In this document: positions 9,222 through 25,894 of the stretch, one piece after another
How positions within the stretch are numbered: position 1 is the first letter of the stretch
Layout: each line of letters begins with the position of its first letter
Assembly: GCA_009926305.1 (NCBI GenBank)
Contig: RFPC01000020.1
Location: 1-36,719 of the forward strand
Length of the DNA stretch: 36,719 nt
Origin: a bacterium
GTDB taxonomy: Bacteria; Bdellovibrionota_C; UBA2361; RFPC01
Reading direction: 5' to 3'
The notes under the pieces: generated by a model
What the model was told of the DNA's origin: nothing
Database searches by the model: none
The model's input: only the letters and a program-made list of their open reading frames with translations
Position numbers and translations under genes: made by a program

Positions 9222-10664
9222 ATGGATCTTCGAATTACTATCAAGCTCCTCGGCGGCCTTTTGTCTCTCCTCTCATTATTCTTGGTTATCCCTGGTGCGT
9301 ATGGAATGCTCATCGGTGAAATTGCAGGCAAGCATTTGATTCTCAGTGCTGTTGGATGTTCACTCCTCGGTGCTCTCGCTTACTTTAGCCAAAAGAGTTA
9401 TCGGGCAGAGCTCAATAATCGGACCGGAATAGCTCTCGTAAGCCTTGCCTGGTTCGGAACAGCGATAGTAGGCGCCATCCCATTCTATCTCTCCGATCCA
9501 GCCATCCATTTTCTTGATGCGCTCTTTGAGTCGACCTCTGGATTCACTGGCACTGGAGCCTCAATCTTGACTGATCTCGATGCGGTGCCGAGAAGTATCC
9601 TGCTCTGGCGCTCGATGACACAGTGGATTGGTGGCATGGGTATTGTCCTGTTCTTTATTGCTATCCTCCCTATTTTTGGACTAGGAGGGGTGCAACTGTT
9701 TCGAGCAGAGACCCCAGGGCCAAGTAAAGACAAAATTACTCCACGGGTGCGGGATACCGCGAAAATGCTCTGGGGACTCTACCTCGGCTTAACTCTTATT
9801 CTTGCATGTCTTCTCTACTTTGCGGGAATGAGCTTCTTCGATGCTATTAACCATGCAATGACGACTACTTCCACGGGAGGATTCTCTACACAATCAACAG
9901 GAATTGCCTTCTTTAATAGTCCACTTATTGAAGACATCTTAATTGTCTTTATGCTGCTATGCTCAATAAGCTTCTCTCTACACTTTCGCCTCCTACTCTC
10001 AGGGTCATTATCTGCACTCTTCTCGACAGAGGCAAAATGGTACTTAGCAATTATTGCTCTTGCAGTAACTCTCTTGACCCTCGGCTTATGGAGTAGTAGC
10101 GGGGCGTTAGTGGAGAGCTTCCGCCATGCTGCTTTCACGGTAGTCTGCACCGCTTCCTCTACTGGCTTTACCAATATCAACTATGAACATTGGTCAGCAG
10201 GACTTCAGTTTCTCCTGATTCTTTTGATGATTATGGGAGGCATGTCAGGCTCAACCTCAGGAGGACTAAAATGCATACGGATTGTCACAGCGATCAAACA
10301 ACTCTCAAAAGAACTGAAAAGAGTGGTTCATCCTCGTGCACTCTATGCGATCAAAATCAATGACCATACGGTTTCGAATGATGTGATCAATGCCATCTGG
10401 GGATTTATCTTCCTCTACATTACCGTTCTTATCGCTCTTAGCTCAATTTTATCTTTTCAAGGTCTCGATCTCATATCAGCCACTACGGCCTCAATCTCTG
10501 CTCTCTCAAATATTGGCCCCGCCCTAGGTGAACTTGGGCCATATGATAACTATGCGGCTCTGCCACTGATATCGAAAAGCGCATTCATTGGTGGAATGCT
10601 TGTTGGAAGACTCGAGTTTTACACTATTATCGTGCTGTTCACCTTTGAATTCTGGAGAAAATAG
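9222..10664 (+). CDS. trkH: Trk system potassium uptake channel subunit TrkH
   Basis: Integral inner-membrane K+ translocating subunit that pairs with TrkA. The 480 residues match the family (about 483). It shows the four pore-loop segments of the SKT superfamily: STSGFTGTGAS near residue 105, TTTSTGGFSTQS near 210, TASSTGFTNINYEHW near 315 and SNIGPALGELGPYDNYA near 430, each separated by hydrophobic helix pairs. The conserved QWIGGMGI segment follows the first pore loop. The gene converges on the downstream lipoprotein gene with only 7 bases between the two stops, so their 3' ends are likely to share or overlap terminators. Confidence 0.96.
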   Translation: MDLRITIKLLGGLLSLLSLFLVIPGAYGMLIGEIAGKHLILSAVGCSLLGALAYFSQKSYRAELNNRTGIALVSLAWFGTAIVGAIPFYLSDPAIHFLDALFESTSGFTGTGASILTDLDAVPRSILLWRSMTQWIGGMGIVLFFIAILPIFGLGGVQLFRAETPGPSKDKITPRVRDTAKMLWGLYLGLTLILACLLYFAGMSFFDAINHAMTTTSTGGFSTQSTGIAFFNSPLIEDILIVFMLLCSISFSLHFRLLLSGSLSALFSTEAKWYLAIIALAVTLLTLGLWSSSGALVESFRHAAFTVVCTASSTGFTNINYEHWSAGLQFLLILLMIMGGMSGSTSGGLKCIRIVTAIKQLSKELKRVVHPRALYAIKINDHTVSNDVINAIWGFIFLYITVLIALSSILSFQGLDLISATTASISALSNIGPALGELGPYDNYAALPLISKSAFIGGMLVGRLEFYTIIVLFTFEFWRK

Positions 10665-10671
10665 CCCGGAG

Positions 10672-11250
10672 CTACTCACGTGCTGCACTTACACTCGCGC
10701 TATATTTGCCCCATAGCGACATATATTCTTTTCCATTCACCGTAATCAATGATTCCACTTGACTGTCCTCAGTTACATTCCTTACTCGAGAGAGGAATTC
10801 ATCGACCACCATAAAATTGTTCGCATCACCTGATACTGAAATTGTATCCTGGGCAATTGAAATGTCCGTTACTTCTAAACCCTTTCCTTCATATGACTGC
10901 GCTATTGTGGAAATCGATTCTTTGAGAGACTGAAGAGATGCATGCGGCGAGTATCTTGCTTTCCCTTCTTCAGAATGAATATGGATATGCGGAAAAACGT
11001 TTCTCCTTCCCGCATGGTGTTGGGCGATAGCAATAGCCTCTTGTTTGTCACTCGGACGTGAAACATAACCATCGAGATAAATTCCAGATTTTCTTTGCGC
11101 TATTTTTATATCAAAAGGAGGCCTCATTCGTGATTCAACGAGCGCTCCCTCAATATCTTTTGCTTGCTTTGCAACGCATCCCGCTGAAAATAAAAACGGC
11201 AAGCATATCAAGGAATAAAGAACGCTTTGTTTTTGAATACTTCGTGACAT
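10672..11250 (-). CDS. Small lipoprotein with two BON-like segments
   Basis: 192 residues from the ATG at 11250. An upstream in-frame ATG at 11256 abuts the AGGAGG ribosome site with no gap, whereas 11250 sits 6 nt after it, so 11250 is preferred. The N-terminus has a basic and hydrophobic signal followed by FSAGC, a relaxed lipobox with Cys 25, so a lipoprotein is likely. Two weak alpha/beta repeats look like BON domains: about residues 40-75 (DIKIAQRKSGIYLDGYVSRP, then a helix) and about 120-165 (LEVTDISIAQDTISVSGDA, then a helix). BON domains occur in periplasmic and outer-membrane proteins that bind phospholipid or peptidoglycan. The gene starts 78 nt after murG on the same strand, so it may be read from the dcw transcript. 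The BON assignment rests on pattern only; function unknown. Confidence 0.75.
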   Translation of the reverse strand: MSRSIQKQSVLYSLICLPFLFSAGCVAKQAKDIEGALVESRMRPPFDIKIAQRKSGIYLDGYVSRPSDKQEAIAIAQHHAGRRNVFPHIHIHSEEGKARYSPHASLQSLKESISTIAQSYEGKGLEVTDISIAQDTISVSGDANNFMVVDEFLSRVRNVTEDSQVESLITVNGKEYMSLWGKYSASVSAARE

Positions 11251-11256
11251 CGGCAT

Positions 11257-11262
11257 CCTCCT
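11257..11262 (-). promoter_or_regulatory. Ribosome binding site that decides the lipoprotein start
   Basis: A perfect AGGAGG on the minus strand, directly adjacent to ATG 11256 and 6 nt before ATG 11250. Normal Shine-Dalgarno spacing favours the second ATG. Confidence 0.75.
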
Positions 11263-11328
11263 TTCATTCTATTACTGAAGAAGAATATGATTTTTAGGGA
11301 TAGAGAAATCGGATGCTCGACAGGTTCT

Positions 11329-12432
11329 TTACGCTTCGACTAACGACTCAATGCCATCTGCAATCCGTTCCGCGGCATTTAATGGTCTCTCAGGACCTTT
11401 TCGCTCAACCATTTGCTGATACTCCTCAGGATCCAGCAGTCTCGTTATCTGCTCAAGCAGCCGTTCTTGGAATGCATCACCTTCCTCGACAACATACGCC
11501 TTTCCCTGGGAGGAGAGAGTCTCCGCATTTCTGTGCTGATGCTGCCCCTGAGCGAATGGGAATGGTACAAATATCGCTGGTCGATTTACGGTCGCTACTT
11601 CCATTACTGTCCCGGCTCCAGCACGACACACGATCACGTCCGCCCAACGATAGGCCTCTCCTAGCTCATGAATAAAACTCTCTACTCTTGCTTCAAGTCC
11701 AACTTCTCTATAGCGATGCTTAAGTCGATCCAAGTGTTCAGGGCGGCACTGATGAAAAAGCTCAAGACTTCTTTCCCTGAGTTGCGGCGCAATCTCAAAG
11801 AAAACATCATCTATTGCTTTTGCTCCTTGAGAACCTCCAATGACGAGAAGATTCTTAATCTCTTTCGGGACTCTCTCCTCCCTCGCAACCTCCAAGACAT
11901 CATGCCGAATTGGATGTCCGGTAAAAACAATTTTTTGCTCTGGAAGATCTCTCGTCTCTGCAAAGGCCACCGAAACCTTAGTTGCAAATCGAGAAAGAAA
12001 TCGATTCGCATTACCTGCTGACAGCTCCGCTTCATGAATCCAAGAGGGAACCCCCTTCAAAGAAGCAACAAGAATCGGCAAGACTGAAGCGTATCCTCCC
12101 ACCCCGACTACCACGGTAGGACGCACTTTTGAAAAAAGGCGCAAGGTATTGAATAACGCTCCGGGAAATTTGAGCAGAAATCGAATCCAGCCCTTTAGGC
12201 CGAGATTGTTCAATCCAGATAGCGATATAGAGTGAGTAGCATACGGTGACGCACGAAAGATATCCTCCTCAAGACGACGCCCACTTCCTACAAAATGAAC
12301 TTCATATCCTCTTCTGGCTAATACGTCGGCAAGGTATCGAGCAGGCATCAGGTGTCCGCCAGAACCGCTGGCAGCAATAAGAACCCGTCGCGCCCTTGAT
12401 TCAACAGTTTCACTTTCCGCTTCTGACAGCAT
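11329..12432 (-). CDS. murG: MurG, lipid II-forming GlcNAc transferase
   Basis: Transfers GlcNAc from UDP-GlcNAc to lipid I on the cytoplasmic face of the inner membrane, giving lipid II. 367 residues, close to the family's usual 355. The N-terminal GT-B domain has the glycine loop GSGGHLMPA (residues 23-31), the second loop GVGGYASVLP and IHEAELSAGNANRF (acceptor-side histidine and glutamate). The C-terminal domain has IGGSQGA and the donor-binding CRAGAGTVMEVA and FAQGQHQHRNA. The ATG overlaps the end of ftsW by 23 nt and follows GGAGG with 7 nt spacing, which indicates coupling. The usual next gene, murC, is absent; a lipoprotein gene follows instead. An N-terminal extension of about 12 acidic residues precedes the domain. 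Confidence 0.97.
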   Translation of the reverse strand: MLSEAESETVESRARRVLIAASGSGGHLMPARYLADVLARRGYEVHFVGSGRRLEEDIFRASPYATHSISLSGLNNLGLKGWIRFLLKFPGALFNTLRLFSKVRPTVVVGVGGYASVLPILVASLKGVPSWIHEAELSAGNANRFLSRFATKVSVAFAETRDLPEQKIVFTGHPIRHDVLEVAREERVPKEIKNLLVIGGSQGAKAIDDVFFEIAPQLRERSLELFHQCRPEHLDRLKHRYREVGLEARVESFIHELGEAYRWADVIVCRAGAGTVMEVATVNRPAIFVPFPFAQGQHQHRNAETLSSQGKAYVVEEGDAFQERLLEQITRLLDPEEYQQMVERKGPERPLNAAERIADGIESLVEA

Positions 12433-13597
12433 TGCTAGGCCTCCGAGCGAGCACTAAGAGGATTCCAACTCCCAATAGACTCACAACCGTACTTGTTCCA
12501 CCATAACTGAGAAAAGGCAAGGCTAAGCCCTTGGTGGGTAATAAACCAAGTACAACCCCCATGTTCAGCAAGGCTGGAGCAACAATGAAAAGGGTTACCC
12601 CTATTCCGAGTGTAAAGGCAAACGTATCATGCGTAAGTCGAAGTGAGATCTTTAGCCCCCGCCACAGAAAGAGGCCAAACAGGAGAAGGACACAAGTGCT
12701 ACCGATAAACCCAAGTTCCTCGGCAACCACTGCAAAGATAAAATCAGTGTGAGCAGCTGGAAGAAAAAACAACTTCTGTTGACTCGCACCAAGACCTACC
12801 CCCGAAAGTTGACCACTTCCGACCGCTATTAGGGATTGGATCAGCTGGTAGCCCTTTCCAGATGCATCTGCCATCGGCTCAAGGAAGGAAAGCAATCGTC
12901 GAACCCGATAAGGGCTGGTAAGTACCAAAGTTAATAATGCGAGGCCACAAAATGCTCCTGAGATAGCAAGATGGCGGAAGCGGACTCCCGCACACAACGC
13001 CATGGCAAATGTAATTAAGAGAGTAAGCGCAGTACTCCCAAAATCTGGTTGCAGTAGATAAAGAAATGCAATAACACCCACGAGCAGAAGTGGCTTAAGA
13101 ATACCCTGTGAAAATATATGTAATCGGGCTTCTCTGCGAGCAAAGTACCCCGCCATGAATACAACAAATCCTAACTTCACCACCTCCCCCGGCTGAAACC
13201 GCAGTCCGAGCAGATTGACCCAGCGCACAGCTCCTCCAGCCTTAACACCAATAGCGGGGACCAATGGCAACAGCAAGAGAATGATGGATGCAGGAAGCAA
13301 TAAGGGAGAGAGTCGTCGAATGAGGGACAACTTCAGACGCGAAATTGCTACAACTCCAACACAACCGATAAGTGCCGCAATCCCCTGTCGCCGCAGATAG
13401 TAATATTCGTCTCCAAACTTCTCCTGAGCAAGCACTCCAGACGTTGAATACAGCATGAGGAGACCAAATGCCATCAGTAAGAGCGTGACGATGACGAGCG
13501 GCACATCGGAAAAGAACGGTGGTGCAAGGCGTTGTTCCCGAGAACGTTCAGGACGCTCGGTTATTACATCGAGGATTGATAACTGCTGTGAAGACAT
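12410..13597 (-). CDS. ftsW: FtsW, SEDS-family peptidoglycan polymerase of the divisome
   Basis: Septal peptidoglycan glycosyltransferase that works with the transpeptidase FtsI. 395 residues with about ten hydrophobic helices. It carries the SEDS signature GLALPFLSYGGTS near the C-terminus, the AEELGFIG segment and a family-typical Gly-rich loop (GVGLGASQQKLFFLPAAHTDFIF). A cytoplasmic N-terminus of about 30 residues precedes the first helix. Its start lies 70 nt after the flagellin stop and its end overlaps murG. A murD gene normally lies just upstream in this cluster, but here a flagellin does. The ribosome site (AAGGT right before the ATG) is weak. Confidence 0.96.
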   Translation of the reverse strand: MSSQQLSILDVITERPERSREQRLAPPFFSDVPLVIVTLLLMAFGLLMLYSTSGVLAQEKFGDEYYYLRRQGIAALIGCVGVVAISRLKLSLIRRLSPLLLPASIILLLLPLVPAIGVKAGGAVRWVNLLGLRFQPGEVVKLGFVVFMAGYFARREARLHIFSQGILKPLLLVGVIAFLYLLQPDFGSTALTLLITFAMALCAGVRFRHLAISGAFCGLALLTLVLTSPYRVRRLLSFLEPMADASGKGYQLIQSLIAVGSGQLSGVGLGASQQKLFFLPAAHTDFIFAVVAEELGFIGSTCVLLLFGLFLWRGLKISLRLTHDTFAFTLGIGVTLFIVAPALLNMGVVLGLLPTKGLALPFLSYGGTSTVVSLLGVGILLVLARRPSNAVRSGK

Positions 13598-13667
13598 ACC
13601 TTGTATCTTCGCGGATTCTCGCCATTGGCACCAGATACGTATTCGCTGAAGAAGCCATGAAAAGAGC

Positions 13668-15518
13668 TTATATGGAAAGAAGCCTCAACAAGAGAGAGGG
13701 CTGTGCATTTGCTTGAGCAAGAGTCGCTACAGCAGCTTGTTGGAGAATTTGGATCCTTACAAGCTCTGCTGCCTCAGAAGCAACATCCACATCTCGAATA
13801 CGTGATTCTGCTGCTAAAATCTCATCCCGCTGTAAAGCGATTGTGTTCTCTGCGTATGACATCCGAGAAAGCGACGCTCCTAGCTGGCCCCGAAGAGCAC
13901 CGACTCCAGCGAGATTCGATGACAATCTATCAACCCCCTCCCGAGCAGCCTCAGCCGAGGTTACTTGAATCGACCCAAGCCCAGCTACCATACGCCGTAT
14001 ATCAGAAATGCCAGCAGAGATGGTTCCAGAGGTCCCATATCCAACCTGAAAGACATGATTCTTCTCATCTGGGGTTAGGGAGTATTGATGAAGATCTCCA
14101 CCAGAATCAGTAGCAAAAGCGGTCTTTCCATCCGCGCTCAGATGAATGTTATTAAGGGTCCCGTGATTGCCGTCCGTCAGCTGGACTACTCGATTTGTAA
14201 TTCGATCGAATTGAAAGAACTCTGTGCTGCCGTCACTGTTTTCGCCAGTAAAATCGCTTGTACTGGAAAAGTTTACCATTGTTCCGTCCAGCGAAAGTGC
14301 AACATTTTGAATTAACTTCGTTTCCTCAAAATTCGTAAGCTGCGTCGTAGCACCTGAACTAATATCAACTTCAAATATTTGTCGGAGGGAATTTCCGTTT
14401 CCAACAAGATCTGAGGTTGAAGTAACGAGGAGCTTTCCATCATCGGTGAGTCCTCTTGCTGTCATCGAATTATCGGAGAATAACACGGAAGACTCCATTC
14501 CCGTCTCGCTTATCTGGACCGAGATAAACTTCCCTGCAGCATTCGAGAATGCTCCTTTGGTTCCATCTGGAGATATGAAGAAATTACTTATAGTACCGGA
14601 AAACTCTTCTCCATTTGTCCAGATTTTTCCCGTTGCTACATCCAGAGCATACAGCCCTGGGTTTGTTGTTGAAGAACCAGTAGCATCATCTTTTGTTCCG
14701 CCGTTCACATATTCGGAACGAGCAAGAAAAAATACTGTCGAACCATCGGCGCTGATTTTTGCCTTTGACTGGTCGGCAGTATTTGAGGAGTTTGTTAACT
14801 GCTGTTCCTGTCCTGTAGCAAAATCATACAGAAACATATCTTCACCAGAGGCATGCTCGAGCGAAAGCACAACCTTGTCATCAACCGTATATCCCTTAAC
14901 AGAAACACTGTTAATGAACGCCCCTCCCATCCAACCAGATAGCACTCCCGAGTTGAGGGTTAATGAGTCGCCCTCTACAGAATCATAGAAAGAAATTTCA
15001 TTTGCCGGAGGAATTCCTGAATAATATGCGAGATATCTTCCACGAACATCAACGCTACTAGACGTAGATGACGATTCAACGAGCGTTCGACCTCCTGAAT
15101 TTGGGCTTCGGTCAAAGATCTGCATCCCGTTAAACTTTGAACTACTGGTGATTCGACGAATCTCTTGATCAAGAGCATTGATCTCTTCCTGCATTGAGAT
15201 CCGCTGCTGCTTACTGAACGTGCCATTGGCTCCTTGTTGGGCCAATTCCTGCATGCGAGCGGTCAGGTTTGTAACTTGTTCAAGCGTTGAGTCTGCGATG
15301 CTTACAAATGATGTGGCATCTGAAACATTTCTACGGGCCTGGGAAAAGACTCGAGCGCGAGAGCTTAAGCTATCTGCTATCGCACGTCCTGCCGAATCAT
15401 TTTGTAATCTTTGACCACTCGAAAGTCGCTCTGATACCCGCATGAGCTCGTTCATCGTGCCACCAAGAATCCGAACCGCTCGGAGGGAAGCAATATTTGT
15501 CTGGAGCGAAAAAACCAT
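13668..15518 (-). CDS. Flagellin with a TolB/PD40-like beta-propeller insert
   Basis: 616 residues. The N-terminal D0/D1 region (1-140) has the classic pattern: NIASLRAVRILG, RLSSGQRLQNDSAGRAIADSL and the long helices to KFNGMQIFDR. The C-terminal D1/D0 region (about 489-616) has FQVG, then GVDRLSSNLAGVGALRGQLGA and ends AQANAQPSLLLRLLSI, so filament assembly should be intact. Between them, residues about 158-488 contain six or seven blade-like repeats with an aromatic strand, an SxDG turn and a Tyr/Asp strand. Examples are ISADGSTVFFLARS (255-268), FISPDGTKGAFS (314-325), LTDDGKLLVTSTSD (357-370), LSLDGTMVNFSSTSD (408-422) and LSADGKTAFATDS (460-472), often ending in TGQEQQLTN or TTQLTN. This resembles the TolB/PD40 propeller of periplasmic proteins and would be displayed on the filament surface. 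It lies between mraY and ftsW, where murD is usual. The ribosome site is weak, and I see no sigma-28 or sigma-54 promoter in the 195 bases upstream. Confidence 0.93.
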   Translation of the reverse strand: MVFSLQTNIASLRAVRILGGTMNELMRVSERLSSGQRLQNDSAGRAIADSLSSRARVFSQARRNVSDATSFVSIADSTLEQVTNLTARMQELAQQGANGTFSKQQRISMQEEINALDQEIRRITSSSKFNGMQIFDRSPNSGGRTLVESSSTSSSVDVRGRYLAYYSGIPPANEISFYDSVEGDSLTLNSGVLSGWMGGAFINSVSVKGYTVDDKVVLSLEHASGEDMFLYDFATGQEQQLTNSSNTADQSKAKISADGSTVFFLARSEYVNGGTKDDATGSSTTNPGLYALDVATGKIWTNGEEFSGTISNFFISPDGTKGAFSNAAGKFISVQISETGMESSVLFSDNSMTARGLTDDGKLLVTSTSDLVGNGNSLRQIFEVDISSGATTQLTNFEETKLIQNVALSLDGTMVNFSSTSDFTGENSDGSTEFFQFDRITNRVVQLTDGNHGTLNNIHLSADGKTAFATDSGGDLHQYSLTPDEKNHVFQVGYGTSGTISAGISDIRRMVAGLGSIQVTSAEAAREGVDRLSSNLAGVGALRGQLGASLSRMSYAENTIALQRDEILAAESRIRDVDVASEAAELVRIQILQQAAVATLAQANAQPSLLLRLLSI

Positions 15519-15671
15519 CTGAACTACTCAACACCGCTTAAGAGCAACACACCCCATCCGCATCGAAAACCAACCAATGGTTCCCTGATCACTATAGGCG
15601 ACTCTTTTTGGAAAAAGGTGAAGAATCTGAGTCTCTTACCTGTCGTTAACAGACATTATTGGTGATTTTTA

Positions 15672-15686
15672 GCAGAGGATCTCTGC
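15672..15686. repeat. Inverted repeat between mraY and flagellin
   Basis: Perfect 6-bp stem GCAGAG / CTCTGC with a 3-base loop, 28 nt after the mraY stop in transcription order. On the minus strand it is followed by TAAAAATCA, not a T-run, so it is not a standard intrinsic terminator. The rest of the 195-base gap (15519-15713) shows no gene. Confidence 0.45.
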
Positions 15687-15713
15687 ATTCATACCAGAAG
15701 TGCTTAGCAGATT

Positions 15714-16778
15714 TTACCGCAGCTTTAGTGTTGAAAGCGAAATAATAGCGAGCACGATTGAGATAATCCAAAAGCGTACAATGATTTTTGGCTCTGCCCA
15801 ACCTTTGAGCTCAAAGTGATGATGTATCGGCGCCATTCGAAAAACGCGTTTTCCAGTAAGCTTAAAAGAATACACTTGAAGGATTACTGAAAGTGCCTCA
15901 ATCACAAAAATTCCACCTGAGATAACCAGTAACATCTCTTGCTTTACCAAGACCGCAATGGTTCCAAGCACGCCACCTAAACTCAGAGCACCGATGTCTC
16001 CCATAAACACTTGGGCTGGGAAGGTGTTATACCACAGAAATCCAAGCCCACCTGCAATGACAGAAGCGAGAATAATAGCAAGCTCGCCTACTCCCGGAAC
16101 GCCCATAATCCCAAGATAACTTGAGAACTCCGCGTGTCCAGTAATGTATGCAAATGCTGCATAGGCCGTAGCTACCGTCATAATGGGGCCGATGGCTAAT
16201 CCGTCTAACCCATCCGTCAAATTCACTGCATTAGAGCAACCAACCACCACAAGCATCACAAAGGGTATAAACCAGATACCGAGATCAAAAAATAAATCTT
16301 TAAAGAACGGAACCGTAAGTCCTGAGGGAAAGTCGGTTACGTAGAGGATAGTTCCAAGCGTTAGAGCAACACCAAACTGCCACGCCAACTTCATTCTACC
16401 ACTAATGCCACCAGAGTCCTGCTGTGTAACCTTTTTCCAGTCGTCAAGAAACCCAAGACCCGCATAAGCGAGCATCACCACCAGCACCATCCAAACAAAC
16501 TTATTGGTAAGATCATTAAATAAAAGGGCAGAAAGCATCATCCCCACTATGACCACGAGCCCTCCCATAGTAGGAGTTCCCTGTTTACTGAAATGGTCTT
16601 TTGGCCCTTCCTGACGAATCGGCTGACCTTTGATTCCTATTTGTCGTAGACGTGAAATAAATATCGGCTGAAAAATGAGAACAAACGTAAATGTAAAAAT
16701 AAACGCTAGCGCAGCGCGAAATGTCAGATAGCGAAAGATGTTGATCTCAAAAAGCGAGTGTAAAACATGATAGAACAT
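15714..16778 (-). CDS. mraY: MraY, phospho-MurNAc-pentapeptide translocase
   Basis: Inner-membrane enzyme that transfers phospho-MurNAc-pentapeptide to undecaprenyl phosphate to make lipid I. 354 residues with about ten membrane helices. Visible hallmarks are GFLDDWKKVTQ (the DDxxK magnesium site), NLTDGLDGLAIGP, VFMGDIGALSLGG and the C-terminal PIHHHFELKGW. All are intact. The ATG overlaps the stop of the murF-like gene (TAATG) and a ribosome site AAGGTGAG lies about 9 nt upstream, which suggests tight translational coupling. The next gene in the transcript direction is the flagellin, 195 nt away. Confidence 0.97.
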   Translation of the reverse strand: MFYHVLHSLFEINIFRYLTFRAALAFIFTFTFVLIFQPIFISRLRQIGIKGQPIRQEGPKDHFSKQGTPTMGGLVVIVGMMLSALLFNDLTNKFVWMVLVVMLAYAGLGFLDDWKKVTQQDSGGISGRMKLAWQFGVALTLGTILYVTDFPSGLTVPFFKDLFFDLGIWFIPFVMLVVVGCSNAVNLTDGLDGLAIGPIMTVATAYAAFAYITGHAEFSSYLGIMGVPGVGELAIILASVIAGGLGFLWYNTFPAQVFMGDIGALSLGGVLGTIAVLVKQEMLLVISGGIFVIEALSVILQVYSFKLTGKRVFRMAPIHHHFELKGWAEPKIIVRFWIISIVLAIISLSTLKLR

Positions 16779-18025
16779 TAGGGAGTCTCACCTTCACTGA
16801 AATTCATATTAGCAAGCGTATACAGTTCATCTCTCTTCTGAAAGAGACCTTCCGCAAGAGTATCGTCCTCAATATAGGCTATTGCGTAAAGAGGGGTTTC
16901 TTGGACTAAGGAACGAATGGCCTCGGGAATACTCTTCACCTCCGTCACCCACTTTTTCAGATCTGGAGAAGTTTCCTGATCAGGCGTTGTCCCAACGAGA
17001 TAGAGCTGAATGTCCTCCAGAAGGTTCTTTTCACTACTCTCGATAAACGGCTTGAGGGCAGCAAGACTATCAGTGATGAGGGCAAAACAGACTCCCTCAT
17101 TGTCAGATATCATCATTCTCAGCGTTTCTACATCTGGAGGGGTTTTCCGCTCAATCCACAGGTCTCCAACTTCACCCATACTCACGTGAAACCCGTATGC
17201 AGGAGGTGCAAAGAATCGGTTGCCGAGCTCTTGAAAGTTCTCCTTCGTGGCCTCCACCTGTACACGTTCTGCTATTTTTGGCAGGAATCGAAGTGCTCGC
17301 AGCAGTCGAAGGTCAGGAACAATCCACGGAGTGATTGAAAACTCGTCTGAGACGTATGCAAATTTTCCGCGATCCATATAGGCAAGCTCTTCACTAACAT
17401 CTTGGGCTGTCTCTATATACAAGACTTCCGCTGCAACATCATCTTGGTGCTCTTTGCTCGGGGCACTTCTTATTACAAGATCAGGCTCTAATTCAGAACG
17501 AAGCCTGCTCATTCCTTCCTCTAAACCAATCAGGTACCACAAACTTTCATCTTCACTATTCATCACGCAGGCAGCCATCGCATGCTCATTCTGACGATGA
17601 GTAAGAAGAGGCGAAAGATCTCTGCTCGATCGAAAGCATCCCTTCTTGAAAGACAGCAACGCACTCGCTACCACCTGTTCGAACCACCCGATGAGCGGGT
17701 CTGCTCCCTCAAGGATCACTACTGGAGAATCCATCTTTGTTCTCCACCACCGAAAGAGCTCCCAAAATGCACTGGCAGGATCCTGAACAAGAATAGAATA
17801 CTCCCTCGCCTCCTGATTTAGCTCAACGCCCTGCTGAGTTACGATCATTGAGGCCCCACGGTCGAAAGCTTGCTGTGCGGTTGCATTCAAATCGAAATAG
17901 ATTTCTCCTGAATTTAATGTATCGAGATCAACCGCTACCCCCCGAGCACCACTATTGATGTTGCCTATCTGCTGAGTAGGCGTCAGAAGAGTTGCCACTT
18001 CCTGAAAGGTTGCTCGAAAAGCCAT
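16778..18025 (-). CDS. MurF-like pseudo-ligase at the murF position
   Basis: 415 residues with an intact frame, between murE (5-nt gap) and mraY (TAATG overlap), exactly where murF lies in dcw clusters. The N-terminal third looks like MurF domain 1: VAVDLDTLNSGEIYFDL corresponds to the family's SIDSR..GDLFFAL, then RGASMIV, SAFWELFRWWR and VVILEG. At the place of the GxxGKT(T/S) ATP loop it has EGADPLIGW (106-114), with no lysine or threonine. The central region keeps a faint ligase pattern (LIGLEEGMSRLRSELEPDLVIRSAP). At the C-terminal DDSYNANP signature it has IERKTPPDVETLRMM (291-305). It is therefore a MurF relative that very probably cannot bind ATP or ligate D-Ala-D-Ala. Conservation of length, frame and coupling argues for a retained non-catalytic role, perhaps scaffolding. 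A true murF should then lie elsewhere; this is inference. Confidence 0.8.
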   Translation of the reverse strand: MAFRATFQEVATLLTPTQQIGNINSGARGVAVDLDTLNSGEIYFDLNATAQQAFDRGASMIVTQQGVELNQEAREYSILVQDPASAFWELFRWWRTKMDSPVVILEGADPLIGWFEQVVASALLSFKKGCFRSSRDLSPLLTHRQNEHAMAACVMNSEDESLWYLIGLEEGMSRLRSELEPDLVIRSAPSKEHQDDVAAEVLYIETAQDVSEELAYMDRGKFAYVSDEFSITPWIVPDLRLLRALRFLPKIAERVQVEATKENFQELGNRFFAPPAYGFHVSMGEVGDLWIERKTPPDVETLRMMISDNEGVCFALITDSLAALKPFIESSEKNLLEDIQLYLVGTTPDQETSPDLKKWVTEVKSIPEAIRSLVQETPLYAIAYIEDDTLAEGLFQKRDELYTLANMNFSEGETP

Positions 18026-18030
18026 AGAGA

Positions 18031-19524
18031 TTACTGCCCCCTCTGCAGCGCTTTTTGAACTTCTTCTTGATCTGAAAAATAAAATGTCTCGTTCTGCACT
18101 ATTTGAAAGTTTTCATGCCCTTTCCCCGCGATAAGGAGAATATCGCCTGACTCAAGCAAAGGAACAACACGAGCAATTGCTGCGCTTCTATCATTTTCTA
18201 TAAATTCAGGCTCTAGACCACTCTTGAGAATATCTTGAATGATCCTATCAGGATCCTCCTTACGGGGATTATCCGAGGTCAGAACGACTCGGTCGGCAAG
18301 TTCTTTTGCGACGCTTCCCATCGCTTCTCGTCGTCTCGGATCTTTCCCCCCTCCGAGTCCAAACATGAGCCAAAGCTTACCTTTCGTTACATCACGCAAA
18401 GCCACCAGAGCGTTCTGCAAAGCATCCGCGGTATGTGCATAATCAACAAAAACGGTTTTTCCCTCGTTAGCAAATCGCTCCATCCGTCCCGATGGCGAAT
18501 CAATTTCACGAAGCACTTCTAAAACTCTTTCTGGGGGATATCCTATGCTTACCAGAACACAAAACACAGCGAGATAATTCCGCGCATTGTATTCTCCTAT
18601 TAAAGGAGACGAGAAAGCATAAGAAGTGCCATTAAAGGTAAATTCCCCCGTTATTCCGTTGGATGAAAGCTCAATATTCCGAAATCGAGCCGAGGCTGAT
18701 TCATGATGACCGAAGGTAGAGTAATTCGCATTCTGCGACGCCGCCCACTTCGCTAACCGACGGCCATATTCATCATCGACTCCAATGATGAGGGGCGTCT
18801 GAGGATTTGCAGCAAGAGCTACTTGAAAAAGTCTCTGCTTGGCTGAAAAGTAATCTTCGAGCCCGTCATGATAATTCAAATGATCAGGGGTGAGATTTGT
18901 AAATACTGCACATGAGTATCGGACATCATCCCCCCTTCGCTGATCTAAGGCATGTGAGGATACTTCCATCACACACGCAGTCGCACCTAGCGATTCTGCC
19001 CATTTGGCTGCTGCATGAATTTCATCGGGTGGAGGAGTTGTTGCTTCACCACGGGTGCGAACCGTGCCTTCAAATTGCACGCCAAGGGTTCCGACCTCCA
19101 ACACACGCTCGCCGAACTGCTCAAGTGCTCGTGAGGCCAGCCAAAGACACGTAGTTTTTCCATTGGTTCCTGTTATTCCGATGGTTGTGTAGTTGTGTAT
19201 TGCATACTCGGAACATAGCGCTGCAATTTGACTTAAGGCTTTTCTCGAATCTCTCACGAGTAGAGCAGGCACACCCACAGATGATGGCAGCTCTTGTTCA
19301 ACAATCACCGCTCCAATTCCTTGCTGAACCACTGCTGGAATAAATGAATGGCCATCATGCGTGACCCCCCCGTAAGCAACAAATATCCCACCTGATTCTA
19401 CTTGACGACTATCATTCGTTACTAGGCATCCTTCCGGAGGCAACTCTGGTTGAACACCATGTAACCACGTCCCATCAAGTAGTTCAGTAAGAACATCCCA
19501 ATCTATTTTTTCCGGAAGCCTCAA
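18031..19524 (-). CDS. murE: MurE, UDP-MurNAc-tripeptide (mDAP) ligase
   Basis: Cytoplasmic ATP-dependent ligase that adds the third residue to UDP-MurNAc-dipeptide. 497 residues, the usual length. Domain 1 has TNDSRQVESGGIFVAYGG (36-53). The ATP loop TGTNGKTT is at 118-125. The central domain has TNLTPDHLNYHDGLEDYFSAK, where the lysine is the usual carbamylation site. The C-terminal domain has YAHTADAL, GGGKDPRRR, DNPRKEDP (418-425; the DNPR form is typical of mDAP-adding enzymes) and GKGHE (467-471). The start codon is TTG at 19524, supported by GAGGAGA 5 nt upstream and no nearby in-frame ATG. The product is the substrate for MurF, but the adjacent murF-like gene looks inactive. Confidence 0.96.
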   Translation of the reverse strand: MRLPEKIDWDVLTELLDGTWLHGVQPELPPEGCLVTNDSRQVESGGIFVAYGGVTHDGHSFIPAVVQQGIGAVIVEQELPSSVGVPALLVRDSRKALSQIAALCSEYAIHNYTTIGITGTNGKTTCLWLASRALEQFGERVLEVGTLGVQFEGTVRTRGEATTPPPDEIHAAAKWAESLGATACVMEVSSHALDQRRGDDVRYSCAVFTNLTPDHLNYHDGLEDYFSAKQRLFQVALAANPQTPLIIGVDDEYGRRLAKWAASQNANYSTFGHHESASARFRNIELSSNGITGEFTFNGTSYAFSSPLIGEYNARNYLAVFCVLVSIGYPPERVLEVLREIDSPSGRMERFANEGKTVFVDYAHTADALQNALVALRDVTKGKLWLMFGLGGGKDPRRREAMGSVAKELADRVVLTSDNPRKEDPDRIIQDILKSGLEPEFIENDRSAAIARVVPLLESGDILLIAGKGHENFQIVQNETFYFSDQEEVQKALQRGQ

Positions 19525-19539
19525 AGAATCTCCTCGTGT

Positions 19540-19567
19540 TGATTTTTATGGTTCGTCTATGAACCAT
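19540..19567. repeat. Hairpin and TGATTTTTA motif in the ftsI-murE gap
   Basis: ATGGTTC and GAACCAT (19548-19554 and 19561-19567) form a perfect 7-bp stem with a 6-base loop. Read on the minus strand the hairpin is followed by TAAAAATCA, then the murE ribosome site and TTG start. The same TGATTTTTA word lies beside the hairpin before the flagellin gene and in the murG-lipoprotein gap. It has no T-run, so it is not a typical terminator. An mRNA processing or translation-control element is possible. Confidence 0.45.
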
Positions 19568-19621
19568 ACATTGACTGCAAGCAAGTGTGAAGAGCTCAGT
19601 GCCCACAAATACTAACAAATA

Positions 19622-21511
19622 CTATTGGTAGTACCCCACCCGTTGGAATCCTTGTTTTTGGGACGGTGTGCCGTTGGCTGGAGGTCTACTAATAATCATC
19701 CCTTGAGATGAATCGTCCCATCGCTCGTTGAGTCCTTCATAGGGTCGTGTGTATTCATTTCTCGTTGATAGCGTATGGAGACTTCTCTGCATAATTCGTT
19801 TGAATACGGGAGCCGATGCAACCCCTCCATAGATTGCCCTTCCTCCATCTATGGTACTGGCTCGTGGACGGTCCATCACAACAAGTAAGACTAAAGGCTC
19901 AGAAACTCCGAGTGCACTCCCATCAGCAAACCCTGCAAACGAAGCGACATACGCATCATCTTCGTATCCTCTTCCATCCTCTCGAGGCCTTTGAGCTGTT
20001 CCTGTTTTTCCACCGACGATTACCCCAGGAATACGAGCTCGAGATCCCGTCCCCTCTTTCTCTTCCACTACTCCTACCAACATTCTTTTAGCAAGGTTCG
20101 CCGTATCAGGTGTGAGTACCCGCTCAGGAAGCTCTGGAGAAACGTCATCCAGGATCAGTGAGACGCTCGGAAGAATGCCACCATTGGCCAGCGCAGACAT
20201 TGCTCGAACAATTTGCAATGGAGTAACCGCAACGCCCTGTCCAAAAGAATGAGTTGCGATGTCTATTGGATACCACTGTTTCGGATTCCTCAAAAGTCCA
20301 GATGATTCACCAGGAAATGGAAGTCCTGTTTTCGAGCCAAAACCAAAACGACGAAGCCCTTGATAAATCCGCTCCTTTCCGAGTCGATCTCCCAGCTTGG
20401 TCATACCAATATTTGAGGAATGAACAACTACATTGTAAGTCGAAAGCAAACTGCTTGGATGTACATCATTAATGGTGTGGCCGCCATAGCGGTAAGAACC
20501 CTTCTCACAATTAATCAACTCATGAAAATGAGTCTCTTCCTCTTCGATTGCCATAGCCGCAATGAATGGTTTTAGAATTGAGCCTGGCTCAAAGGACAAT
20601 TCAAGCGCGTGATTCTTTAAGAGCTCTCGACTATCGAGAGCAAGCTGATTGAAGTTTGGGCTTGGAGACTGGCTCATTCCAAGAATTTCTCCAGATGTAG
20701 CATTCATCATTACGGCGAACGCTCGATCGGCTTGTGCCTTCTGCCGTCCTTCTTCAAGCTCTTCATCCATAATGAGCTGTAATGATGCATCAAGAGTTAG
20801 CGATAGCGGCGAGCCTTTAGGGATACCCTTCAGCTCATGACTCACATGCATAAGTTTCCCAAAGCCATCACGAACCACCTCTGTATTCGCCTCTGATGTA
20901 TTGAGATGTGTATTGAAGCGCGCCTCAAGCCCAGAAAGCCCACCTCCGTCTATCCCGACTTTACCAATGAGGGTTGATGCAGCACTCCCGTACGGATAGT
21001 AACGTCTTGACTCAAGAAGGTAACCAACTCCTCGAAGCTCCTCTTTTTCGAGCGCCTCTGCTGTTGGTCGAGGAAGCTGCCTTTTGATCCAAACGAATCG
21101 TGACTCAGACTCCATCCGCTGTAGAACATCTTCTTTATCAATTCCGATAAGATTCGCGAGTTTCACCGCCGTGACTTCCTTGTCACGAATTTGATGAGGG
21201 CGAATATAAATAGACGCGCTAGGTACAGAGGTTGCAAACAACTTTCCATTACGGTCGCGAATGGCTCCTCTCTCCGCCGCAAGGGTGAAGCTCGAGCCAT
21301 GCTGCTTCTTTGCGCTTCCTTCCCATGAGTGCGCATCTGCAATTTGTAGATGATACAATCTTCCAATAACGACCATTGCCCAAAGACAAGCGACGGCGCT
21401 TACTATTTTCACTCGTGTGCGACGATTTACATGCACTAAAGGAGATGTCTGTGACTCCACTTGGGCACGTGCAGCATAATCTCGAAAAAGGTGGAATTGA
21501 CTCTCGGACAT
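19622..21511 (-). CDS. ftsI: FtsI (PBP3), division transpeptidase
   Basis: Septal peptidoglycan D,D-transpeptidase, a class B penicillin-binding protein anchored in the inner membrane. 629 residues from ATG 21511. A cytoplasmic N-terminus is followed by one membrane helix (about 35-56) and then the pedestal domain (AERGAIRDRNGKLFATSV). The three catalytic motifs are intact: SILK at about 311-314, SSN at about 365-367 and KTGT at about 502-505. The ATG overlaps the ftsL stop (TGATG) and a CTGGAG ribosome site lies about 10 nt upstream. A TTG one codon earlier is possible but less likely. The C-terminal tail of about 50 residues after the transpeptidase domain is polar and probably disordered. 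It is followed by a 97-base gap before murE that holds the hairpin described separately. Confidence 0.96.
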   Translation of the reverse strand: MSESQFHLFRDYAARAQVESQTSPLVHVNRRTRVKIVSAVACLWAMVVIGRLYHLQIADAHSWEGSAKKQHGSSFTLAAERGAIRDRNGKLFATSVPSASIYIRPHQIRDKEVTAVKLANLIGIDKEDVLQRMESESRFVWIKRQLPRPTAEALEKEELRGVGYLLESRRYYPYGSAASTLIGKVGIDGGGLSGLEARFNTHLNTSEANTEVVRDGFGKLMHVSHELKGIPKGSPLSLTLDASLQLIMDEELEEGRQKAQADRAFAVMMNATSGEILGMSQSPSPNFNQLALDSRELLKNHALELSFEPGSILKPFIAAMAIEEEETHFHELINCEKGSYRYGGHTINDVHPSSLLSTYNVVVHSSNIGMTKLGDRLGKERIYQGLRRFGFGSKTGLPFPGESSGLLRNPKQWYPIDIATHSFGQGVAVTPLQIVRAMSALANGGILPSVSLILDDVSPELPERVLTPDTANLAKRMLVGVVEEKEGTGSRARIPGVIVGGKTGTAQRPREDGRGYEDDAYVASFAGFADGSALGVSEPLVLLVVMDRPRASTIDGGRAIYGGVASAPVFKRIMQRSLHTLSTRNEYTRPYEGLNERWDDSSQGMIISRPPANGTPSQKQGFQRVGYYQ

Positions 21512-21840
21512 CAACCATTCACTCCAGCAACAATACGAGTAATTTGTGATGTCTCAGGCTGCTTTAAGTTAAGCTCATCGTATGCTCTTTTTGCCAGCAA
21601 GTCGGGGCGAGTTGCTACCGAGTACTGGAGCTCCAGCTCCTGACGTTCATAGTTGAGCGCTTGTGTTTCTTCCCGAAGCTCCGCTATCTGATATCCAAGC
21701 TCAATTCCCTCCAATTTCACCCAAATTCTGTGTGAGAGTGAGATAGCAAGCAGTAATACCGCAAGAATATGCAGTGTTGTTTTTGATTTTGCAGCTTCAC
21801 GATCGAGATAAACAACCTGATGCTCAAGACAAATTGACAT
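21511..21840 (-). CDS. ftsL: FtsL-like divisome scaffold protein
   Basis: 109 residues, a typical bitopic FtsL layout: a short cytoplasmic N-terminus, one membrane helix (about 22-40, HILAVLLLAISLSHRIW), a coiled coil with heptad Leu/Ile (about 44-78) and a short C-terminal tail (ATRPDLLAKRAYDELNLKQP). In known systems FtsL recruits FtsB and FtsI and activates septal synthesis. Sequence identity in this family is always low, so the assignment rests on topology and on its place between rsmH and ftsI. It overlaps ftsI by one base. Confidence 0.85.
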   Translation of the reverse strand: MSICLEHQVVYLDREAAKSKTTLHILAVLLLAISLSHRIWVKLEGIELGYQIAELREETQALNYERQELELQYSVATRPDLLAKRAYDELNLKQPETSQITRIVAGVNG

Positions 21841-21863
21841 AGTTCCCCCCTGTATAACCTTTC

Positions 21864-22796
21864 TTACCTCACCTCATTTGCCGAAAACTGAAAAACACGT
21901 AAACGCGCACTCCTTGAGCGTGGATTCGCCTCTTGCTCCTTTGCTGTTGGCACTATTGCTTTTGGAGTTAATAGACGTCCCAAAGACTGGCTCTCATGCT
22001 GAAATACACCAGGCACATTTGCTGGCAATCCTTCTCCCCTCCACTTTCTCATTCGTCTTGCAACTAATTTATCTTCTAACGAATGAAAGGAAATGCACGC
22101 AAAGATCCCGCCTGAAGCTATGGCTGTCGGCACAAAGTTCAGAAGATTCTCAATCTGTTCAAACTCAGCATTTACCTCTATTCGAATAGCCTGAAAAACT
22201 ACGGTGGCAGGATGCTTTCCAAACCGATCCTTCATCGGAGTTGCGTTTACAATTGCATCAGCAAGCGAATCAGAAGTGTGAAATGGACGCTGTGACAAAA
22301 TTGCTGAGACGTATCGCTTAAGATTCTTTCGAACGCCTCCTTCAGCAAGAACGCGCGTTAATTCTCCAGCGGTGTAGTTATTCACGACAGTCTCGGCTGT
22401 CAGCTCATCCTCTGGATTCATCCGCATATCAAGGCGGGAATCTTCTCGGAAAGATATTCCTCTTCCGTCTTCAATTTGGTCAGAAGAAAGCCCTAAATCG
22501 GCTAAGATGCCACTAAAAGGTCCGTGCTTTGATATTGTTTCGAGTTCAGAGAAGGAGTGGTGATGCAATGAAAATCGTCCTTCAAATGGTTTCAGTCGGC
22601 TTGCAGCTCTGCTAAGAGCCTTTTGATCGCGGTCGATTCCAACGACTTGCACACTTTCTGACGCTTTCAACATTGCTTCCATATGACCCGCGCCGCCTAC
22701 CGTACAATCAAGAAAAACTCCGCCTCTGTCGAGCTTTAACGCCTTAATAACCTCTTCCAGGAGGACCGAAACATGCACCGTAACTTCTCCTGGCAT
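21864..22796 (-). CDS. rsmH: RsmH (MraW), 16S rRNA C1402 N4-methyltransferase
   Basis: SAM-dependent methyltransferase acting on C1402 of 16S rRNA in the ribosomal P site. 310 residues, the usual length. Motifs seen: HVSVLLEEVIKAL at the N-terminus, FLDCTVGGAGHMEAML (SAM loop), GILADLGLSSDQIED, RLDMRMN, ISFHSLEDKLVARRMR and the C-terminal NPRSRSARLRVFQ. It starts 22 nt after mraZ with an AAGGA ribosome site 9 nt before the ATG, and is followed by ftsL after 23 nt. It is the standard second gene of the dcw cluster. Confidence 0.97.
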   Translation of the reverse strand: MPGEVTVHVSVLLEEVIKALKLDRGGVFLDCTVGGAGHMEAMLKASESVQVVGIDRDQKALSRAASRLKPFEGRFSLHHHSFSELETISKHGPFSGILADLGLSSDQIEDGRGISFREDSRLDMRMNPEDELTAETVVNNYTAGELTRVLAEGGVRKNLKRYVSAILSQRPFHTSDSLADAIVNATPMKDRFGKHPATVVFQAIRIEVNAEFEQIENLLNFVPTAIASGGIFACISFHSLEDKLVARRMRKWRGEGLPANVPGVFQHESQSLGRLLTPKAIVPTAKEQEANPRSRSARLRVFQFSANEVR

Positions 22797-22818
22797 ACCT
22801 GCAATCCTTCATGCCCCC

Positions 22819-23337
22819 TTAGATATCTACATCTGAGAACAACTCAGGGTTCTCTAAAAGCGCCTGTTCAGTCTCTTGAAAAATATGTTCCCAAACTCGG
22901 CTATCCCAAATCCGGAATCCGTGAATTGAGCTCGTAAATGTCACCTCACGCTCAAGACTTGCATATTGTCGAAGGTGTGCTGGAAGAAGGATTCGCCCAG
23001 AGCGGTCAAGCGGACACTCCGCAGCACGACTTAAGTAAAAATTCTCAAGCCGCTGAAGTTTACTGCTAAACCGACTCTTCGCCCGAAGCCGCGCTTCAAA
23101 GTCACGCCATGCGGGTTCGGCGAATCCTTCAACACAACGAGAACCGTCTGAAATGTAGTTCGTAAGAACGACACTAGTACAACCTGCTCCTCCAAGAACT
23201 CGACGGAACTCTGAAGGCAAACTCACCCGACCCTTATCGTCGAGCGAGTGAGAAAAGTTGCCCCGGAATGAAAGTAGCGAACCTGTAGAAACCTCTTGTT
23301 CTAACTCTGATTGAGAAGAAGGAGGATCATTCCCCAT
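22819..23337 (-). CDS. mraZ: MraZ, dcw cluster transcriptional repressor
   Basis: AbrB-fold DNA-binding protein encoded by the first gene of the dcw cluster. In E. coli it binds TGGGN direct repeats and represses its own operon. 172 residues with two MraZ half-domains: FRGNFSHSLDDKGRVSLPSEFRRVL (SLDDKGR, about 32-38) and AAECPLDRSGRILLPAHLRQYA (PLDRSGR, about 113-119), the paired D-x-x-G-R motifs of the family. It has an unusual hydrophilic extension of about 22 residues before the conserved FRG. I see no alternative start nearby, so the extension appears real. Matching operator boxes are visible upstream. Confidence 0.95.
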   Translation of the reverse strand: MGNDPPSSQSELEQEVSTGSLLSFRGNFSHSLDDKGRVSLPSEFRRVLGGAGCTSVVLTNYISDGSRCVEGFAEPAWRDFEARLRAKSRFSSKLQRLENFYLSRAAECPLDRSGRILLPAHLRQYASLEREVTFTSSIHGFRIWDSRVWEHIFQETEQALLENPELFSDVDI

Positions 23338-23393
23338 ATCAAGCCACTCAAAAAACGGTTAGAGAATCTCGCGGGGCACCACTAAACGAAATT

Positions 23394-23417
23394 CCCAGTT
23401 TATCCCACTTTCACCCA
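23394..23417 (-). promoter_or_regulatory. MraZ operator: three TGGG boxes with 10-nt period
   Basis: On the minus strand the sequence reads TGGGT, 5 nt, TGGGA, 5 nt, TGGGA, with boxes at 23414-23417, 23404-23407 and 23394-23397. Direct TGGGN repeats with 5-nt spacers are the known MraZ recognition pattern. They lie 57-80 nt upstream of mraZ, right at the predicted transcription start, where binding would block transcription. Confidence 0.85.
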
Positions 23418-23425
23418 CTCCAGCC

Positions 23426-23455
23426 ATAGTAGTGCCAAACAGGCTTTCCCGTCAA
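23426..23455 (-). promoter_or_regulatory. mraZ/dcw promoter (sigma-70 type)
   Basis: Minus-strand -35 TTGACG at 23455-23450 (5 of 6 matches to consensus) and -10 TACTAT at 23431-23426 (4 of 6) with an 18-bp spacer. The start site would fall near 23419, at the edge of the first MraZ box. The rest of the 327-base gap between mraZ and katG holds the katG terminator-like repeat and no gene. Confidence 0.65.
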
Positions 23456-23568
23456 CCAAAAAACCTCGAGATTTAGCAACTTTAAGTGAGATAAAGTAAA
23501 ATCCGTTGAAAAGTTGATGCGTGACAACACATTAGCCGAAGAGCTTGGAAGTCAGCCTGACGAAACGA

Positions 23569-23607
23569 GAGAGGCCCCTCTCACGTCTTCCGCAAGAGGG
23601 GCCTCTC
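23569..23607 (-). terminator. Long inverted repeat downstream of katG, terminator-like
   Basis: GAGAGGCCCCTCT (23569-23581) pairs perfectly with AGAGGGGCCTCTC (23595-23607): 13 bp, GC-rich, with a 13-base loop. It lies 58 nt after the katG stop. The T content after the stem on the minus strand is poor, so it may be a weak terminator or an mRNA-stabilising hairpin that insulates the mraZ promoter. Confidence 0.6.
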
Positions 23608-23664
23608 CTGAACTTGTGGGCTTCGCTATCAAGAAACAAAGCCCTCTTCTTTTTGAGAAGGGTA

Positions 23665-25894
<2,230 letters not shown>

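Follow-up and report, generated by a model that had tools for sequence, protein, structure and literature searches.

A run of dcw genes headed by mraZ lies on the minus strand of the 36,719-nt contig RFPC01000020.1 from an uncultured member of the Bdellovibrionota_C; this whole stretch of DNA is referred to below as the window. Three short direct repeats stand immediately upstream of mraZ at the edge of a putative promoter, which raises the question of whether they form an operator for MraZ, and whether control from this site might extend to a flagellin gene found further along the same run.

The mraZ promoter region and its repeats

The mraZ gene (22819..23337, minus strand) encodes a protein of 172 aa that matched Pfam PF02381 with an E value of 6.4e-25. 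DxxGR motifs matter for MraZ binding, and the DxKGR and DxxGR motifs were both invariant in 11 aligned sequences, that of E. coli among them. The nearest named MraZ records came from MAGs labelled Bdellovibrionales (HKST-UBA25, whose MraZ is 82% identical), Deltaproteobacteria, and Oligoflexia. The boxes lie directly upstream of mraZ, which opens a dcw run that continues on the same strand (11329..22796) with rsmH, an ftsL-like gene, ftsI, murE, a 415-aa ORF, mraY, the flagellin gene, ftsW, and murG.

Direct reading of the minus strand confirmed that TGGGT (23417-23413), TGGGA (23407-23403), and TGGGA (23397-23393) recur with a period of exactly 10 nt at the edge of TTGACG-18-TACTAT, as a sequence-only reading of the locus had claimed. 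With the preceding base included, the candidate MraZ boxes on this strand are GTGGGT (box 1, 23413..23418), GTGGGA (box 2, 23403..23408), and CTGGGA (box 3, 23393..23398), the last being one base off GTGGG. The first box is 81 nt upstream of mraZ.

The predicted dcw promoter, assigned by direct reading and a sigma-70 scan, consists of the -35 hexamer TTGACG (23450..23455, minus strand) and the -10 hexamer TACTAT (23426..23431, minus strand), separated by an 18-nt spacer, with 7 nt between TACTAT and the first box. The pair has 9 of 12 consensus matches, TACTAT alone has 4 of 6, and this was the only minus-strand sigma-70-like match within 19592-23700. Over 10600-23700, 11 sigma-70-like sites were observed versus a mean of 13.4 in shuffles, and the match taken alone is not significant. 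The promoter call is supported by its position and by relatives, not by match score; in an alignment, all four of the closest named relatives have TTGAC at the -35. Transcription is predicted to start on the minus strand within 23412..23419. A start near 23419 is suggested by the position of the -10 hexamer, and the start reported for E. coli, if carried over to the window, could place it nearer 23412. The former would give a predicted mraZ leader of 82 nt (23338..23419, minus strand), as measured from the promoter to the start codon, with the boxes at its 5' end.

The exact triple TGGGN6TGGGN6TGGG occurred once in the assembly (2,988,209 bases, 95.86% complete), before mraZ, and the backwards control gave none. 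When the 178-nt stretch upstream of mraZ was shuffled 20,000 times with dinucleotides preserved, just 2 shuffles contained it; the triple is more than chance. A regulon of MraZ beyond mraZ was sought in the same genome and rejected: GTGG triples with at most one mismatch were found at 5 places, versus 5 in the backwards control. Exact RTGGGN5RTGGG pairs numbered 16 versus 3 in the backwards control, but were likewise rejected as a regulon, as 13 of the 15 outside the window lay within long open frames and two (L106 and L108) were not clearly placed. One such pair, at G000:C67, is inside a flagellin coding frame. L108 is a lone GTGGGTATTAGTGGG pair around 1434-1448 of contig C139 of the genome bin, in a stretch without a clear gene.

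Two further features of the region were examined. The 415-aa ORF (16778..18025, minus strand) stands in the place of murF and has weak similarity to the MurF-type N-domain (0.0029 to murF). It had no significant Pfam match and no visible GTNGKT-type loop, and its single-sequence structure model was uninformative (mean pLDDT 33). Elsewhere in the genome are a MurF-like protein whose N-terminal part is membrane-like (contig C31, L063) and a MurD-like protein (contig C23, L066), both named by reading and by their matches at the murF and murD positions in relatives. The 415-aa ORF might be a degenerate MurF. Between a katG-like gene (23665-25866, minus strand, named by eye) and mraZ, a hairpin with 13-bp arms (GAGAGGCCCCTCT...AGAGGGGCCTCTC) was noted by eye at 23569-23607. 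The hairpin is absent from the listing of the terminator scan; perhaps it is the terminator of the katG-like gene.

Conservation of the repeats upstream of mraZ

MraZ was searched for in 57 genomes and found in 49, counting the genome of the window itself. The class set held 41 rows, of which L006 and L045, having less than 150 nt upstream, were set aside and the other 39 were scored. A GTGG triple at period 10 reached at least 11/12 in 29 of these 39 mraZ upstreams and was perfect in 17. At each of the periods 7, 8, 9, 11, 12, 13, and 14 the count was 0/39, and the period-10 triple again gave 0/39 when sought on the reverse strand or within the opening 220 nt of the coding sequences. Shuffling of the class rows gave 11/12 at period 10 in 2 of 1,950 cases. 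Ten of the 39 rows were below 11/12, among them L044, which was without any triple above 6/12.

Eight rows came from outside the class. One of these (L058) gave no match in the MraZ search, and of the seven scored, L053, L054, L056, and L059 reached 11/12 and L055, L057, and L060 did not. Named genomes provided 171 confirmed relatives, and the best 80 were taken, 77 of them with at least 150 nt upstream. Within this best 80 of 171, the period-10 triple reached at least 11/12 in 23 of 28 class-like loci, which are not independent because they are largely the same contigs as the class rows, and in 46 of 49 more distant loci, which had been chosen by closeness to the window MraZ. At any other tested period, at most one of these loci from the best 80 of 171 reached 11/12. 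Labels of the named loci include Candidatus Binatia, Patescibacteria, Bacteroidetes, and Oscillospiraceae.

In an alignment of the closest relatives, the boxes stood out as conserved. The closest named relative, L109, has ATGGA aligned to box 3, and its best triple (11/12) is one box further upstream; the box array is therefore not fixed. The occurrence of box triples in both the class and the distant loci indicates that they are a very common feature of mraZ. Conservation of the boxes in relatives, proposed earlier as a check, was thus borne out. The accompanying claim that the site lies in a different lineage holds but comes as no surprise, since boxes of this kind stand before the majority of the mraZ genes examined, including those of other phyla.

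The conservation and period specificity of the boxes argue, together with the uniqueness of the triple in the assembly, against a chance repeat beside promoter-like sequence. This reading draws on the finding that sigma-70-like sites are no commoner here than in shuffles, and we consider it exceedingly improbable.

An RNA element in the leader, in which transcribed G-runs could base-pair, recruit a protein, or fold into a G-quadruplex, was also weighed, as all three boxes would be within the transcript if it starts at 23419. In the related genus g14 (rows L007, L008, L010-L012, L015-L018, L021, and L023), the third box is followed in 11/11 rows by CCC, at a distance of exactly 12 nt from the box start; the same holds for 1/12 other order rows (L025) and 0/16 rows in the rest of the class. 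This CCC could be an inverted fourth box or part of a leader hairpin. It could pair with GGG, as an RNA element would have it, but the window is without CCC at the g14 position. Furthermore, a 10-nt period maintained across many phyla is more readily explained by the DNA helix than by RNA folding, and the MraZ of Burkholderia cenocepacia is reported to bind a DNA fragment with such repeats (PMC7761207). A leader element is accordingly rated as highly unlikely.

The E. coli-like layout, the single exact triple in the assembly, the conservation at period 10, and an intact MraZ with both motifs lead us to conclude that the boxes are very probably a canonical, conserved MraZ operator of the dcw cluster, for which we infer the start, the binding of MraZ, the ring, and the sign of regulation. 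Of the proposed E. coli-type MraZ autoregulation, the operator reading is therefore the part that layout and conservation support well, and the sign is taken as repression by analogy with E. coli. RNA polymerase would start near 23419 from TTGACG-18-TACTAT, and an oligomeric MraZ ring would contact the three GTGGG/TGGGA boxes, spaced at one box per helical turn, with one subunit after another. Lying over roughly the first 25 transcribed bases, the ring would hinder initiation or promoter escape, such that mraZ and its downstream genes would be transcribed less when MraZ accumulates. The site is real but ordinary and already understood in kind; the palindrome and the propeller flagellins described below are leads worth more.

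The upstream palindrome and the flagellin gene

The alignment of the closest relatives also brought out a second element, TTTAA-N5-TTAAA, upstream of the -35. In the window, its palindrome-like counterpart TTTATCTCACTTAAA (23481..23495, minus strand) is centred at about -69 and has 9/10 matches to TTTAA-N5-TTAAA. The near relative L109 has a perfect copy. The order comprised 24 rows, and 23 were counted after removal of L006. TTTAA-N5-TTAAA reached at least 9/10 in 17 of the 23 rows (shuffles 4.7%) and was perfect in 12 (shuffles 0.4%), numbers that overstate the independent support, since the rows are related and 11 of the 23 are from one genus. Within these 23 rows it ranked first among 11,264 combinations of half-site and gap. 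By family, it was present in 4/4 rows of f1, 9/11 of f11, and 1/1 each of f4, f7, f8, and f13, and was absent in f3, f5, f6, and f12. In the rest of the class, 2/14 rows were at 9 and none was perfect (shuffles 7.9%), with no clear excess; of the rows from other phyla, 2/4 reached 9 and none 10 (shuffles 9.5%).

Of the 17 rows, 12 have the palindrome 38 nt from the -35, and 9 of those 12 come from the genus that supplies 11 of the 23. The remaining rows have 37 nt and 35 nt (one each), 25 nt (the window and L014), and 21 nt (L022, whose -35 was probably misread). The possibility that the palindrome is a sigma-70 -10 (TTAAAAT) with a -35 of its own was rejected, as none of the few rows read by eye had a -35 suitably spaced from it.

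Genome searches with the longer order consensus CTTTAA-N5-TTAAAATA, allowing at most one mismatch, gave hits in 26 of 27 genomes among the matches listed, and controls were often similar in A+T-rich genomes. On the matches listed, a widespread regulon was not favoured but may exist: of 30 loci viewed among them, 16 held an exact match, and 9 of the exact ones were mraZ sites. Of the remaining exact loci among those listed, 4 were in the high-control genomes G013 and G015, which left L193, L194, and L200; the sites at L193 and L194 precede an scpA-like ORF, named by reading. In the genome of the window, the single match listed is at another place, and the control also gave one. The window copy, TTTATCTCACTTAAA, was not matched by CTTTAA-N5-TTAAAATA at one mismatch and has three departures from it.

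We suggest tentatively that the dcw promoter of the order, which is deltaproteobacterial and uncultured, may be a two-input switch, in which MraZ would act on the boxes at the start site and a putative factor on TTTAA-N5-TTAAA, with the window copy weakened. Positions near -82 or -69, where the palindrome would be centred, are places usual for an activator. The three departures of the window copy from the longer order consensus lowered our rating of this possibility. If it is true, the second conserved palindrome would be a new handle on the switching of cell-wall and division genes in the order.

The sequence-only reading further held that MraZ might influence the flagellin, given its place in the same gene string. 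The gene (13668..15518, minus strand) encodes a 616-aa flagellin with a beta-propeller-like insert, stands in the place of murD, and is indeed on the same strand and in the same gene run as mraZ. Its start is 7.9 kb downstream of the predicted transcription start, with six genes between it and mraZ, a gap of 195 nt after mraY, and ftsW following after 70 nt. Since the terminator scan listed no terminator-like site in the 195-nt gap, read-through from the dcw promoter is possible, and MraZ might control the flagellin by way of the dcw transcript. In keeping with this, no GGAGG ribosome site precedes the gene, although 4 of the 7 other flagellins viewed have one, and no convincing sigma-28 or sigma-54 site was found before it. 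The best sigma-28-like match was 10/16, versus 9-11/16 in the seven others, a comparison covering 8 of 10 flagellin loci that says little because the other flagellins viewed were also without a clear sigma-28 site.

Several observations argue against such control. Neither the exact genome search nor that with at most one mismatch found an MraZ triple before the window flagellin, and at an E value of 1e-4 the flagellin had no match in 20 relative loci around mraY. Eleven of these loci span mraY and ftsW, and the other nine stop short of ftsW or diverge before reaching it. Between mraY and ftsW, a murD-like ligase is present in seven of the 11, the two genes are adjacent in three (L075, L079, and L086), and in the same-genus locus L068 of G001 the slot is taken by an opposite-strand ORF of 248 aa. 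The flagellin belongs to a dispersed, multi-copy family with many relatives in the five family genomes searched, and its place in the dcw run therefore looks like a lineage-specific insertion. The suggested influence of MraZ on the flagellin thus found no specific support, with no triple, 7.9 kb of intervening DNA, and 0/20 relative loci, and we regard control by read-through as rather unlikely.

The insert of the window flagellin (about 150-490) is predicted to be all-beta and matched WD40 and TolB propellers in the PDB. Among six flagellin relatives scanned (L220, L221, L222, L225, L229, and L230), four had 6-7 FG-GAP repeats and two had weak PD40 matches. Flagellins of this family are thus predicted to carry propeller inserts; flagellins with an inserted protease are known, as reported in PMC5595980.

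Comparison with known MraZ sites

The mraZ promoter of E. coli K-12, Pmra (NC_000913, mraZ at 89634-90092), reads TTGACA-18-TAAACT followed, after 7 nt, by GTGGGAAATT GTGGGGCAAA GTGGGAATAA, the hexamers being the best match by script. It shares with the window TTGAC(A/G), the 18-nt spacer, the 7 nt that separate the -10-like hexamer and the first GTGGG, and three boxes at a 10-nt period upstream of mraZ-rsmH. In contrast, box 3 of the window reads CTGGG where E. coli has GTGGG, the first box is 81 nt from mraZ in the window and 44 nt in E. coli, and in E. coli an additional GGGGT stands where a fourth box would be. The E. coli start is reported at 38 bp before mraZ (PMC7761207). This is 6 nt inside the first box and equivalent to about 23412 in the window. 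As it is unusually far from TAAACT, the assignment of the hexamers is not beyond doubt in either E. coli or the window. MraZ is reported to repress its genes in E. coli (PMC7761207).

In B. cenocepacia, PmraBc is described as having repeats that lie downstream of the -10 and cover the mapped start, and EMSA showed binding of MraZ to the fragment (PMC7761207). As in the window, these 7-nt repeats with 3-nt spacers have a 10-nt pitch and lie downstream of the -10, over a start site that in the window is predicted. In contrast to the window's three, there are four of them, and their binding and start have been tested experimentally.

The Mollicutes site is given as AAAGTG[T/G] repeats, which in the account of PMC8475190 occur in M. 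genitalium at the mraZ promoter and nowhere else. The Mollicutes share direct repeats at this promoter with the window, whose second box reads AAAGTGGG; the core as quoted is unlike the window boxes. Mycoplasma MraZ is described as an activator in the B. cenocepacia paper (PMC7761207), whereas its role is referred to as that of a repressor in the M. genitalium paper (PMC8475190). Binding of the repeats by an octameric ring of MraZ is attributed to Fisunov et al. in PMC7761207. MraZ structures in the PDB include 1n0e, 9qlg, 9sx6, and 9qlr, and none of the papers listed by our literature search dealt with the newer ones.

An MraZ feedback site has thus already been described in E. coli, Burkholderia, and mycoplasmas. 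That an uncultured lineage keeps such a site, its geometry little changed, supports the view that this feedback is an old feature of dcw control.
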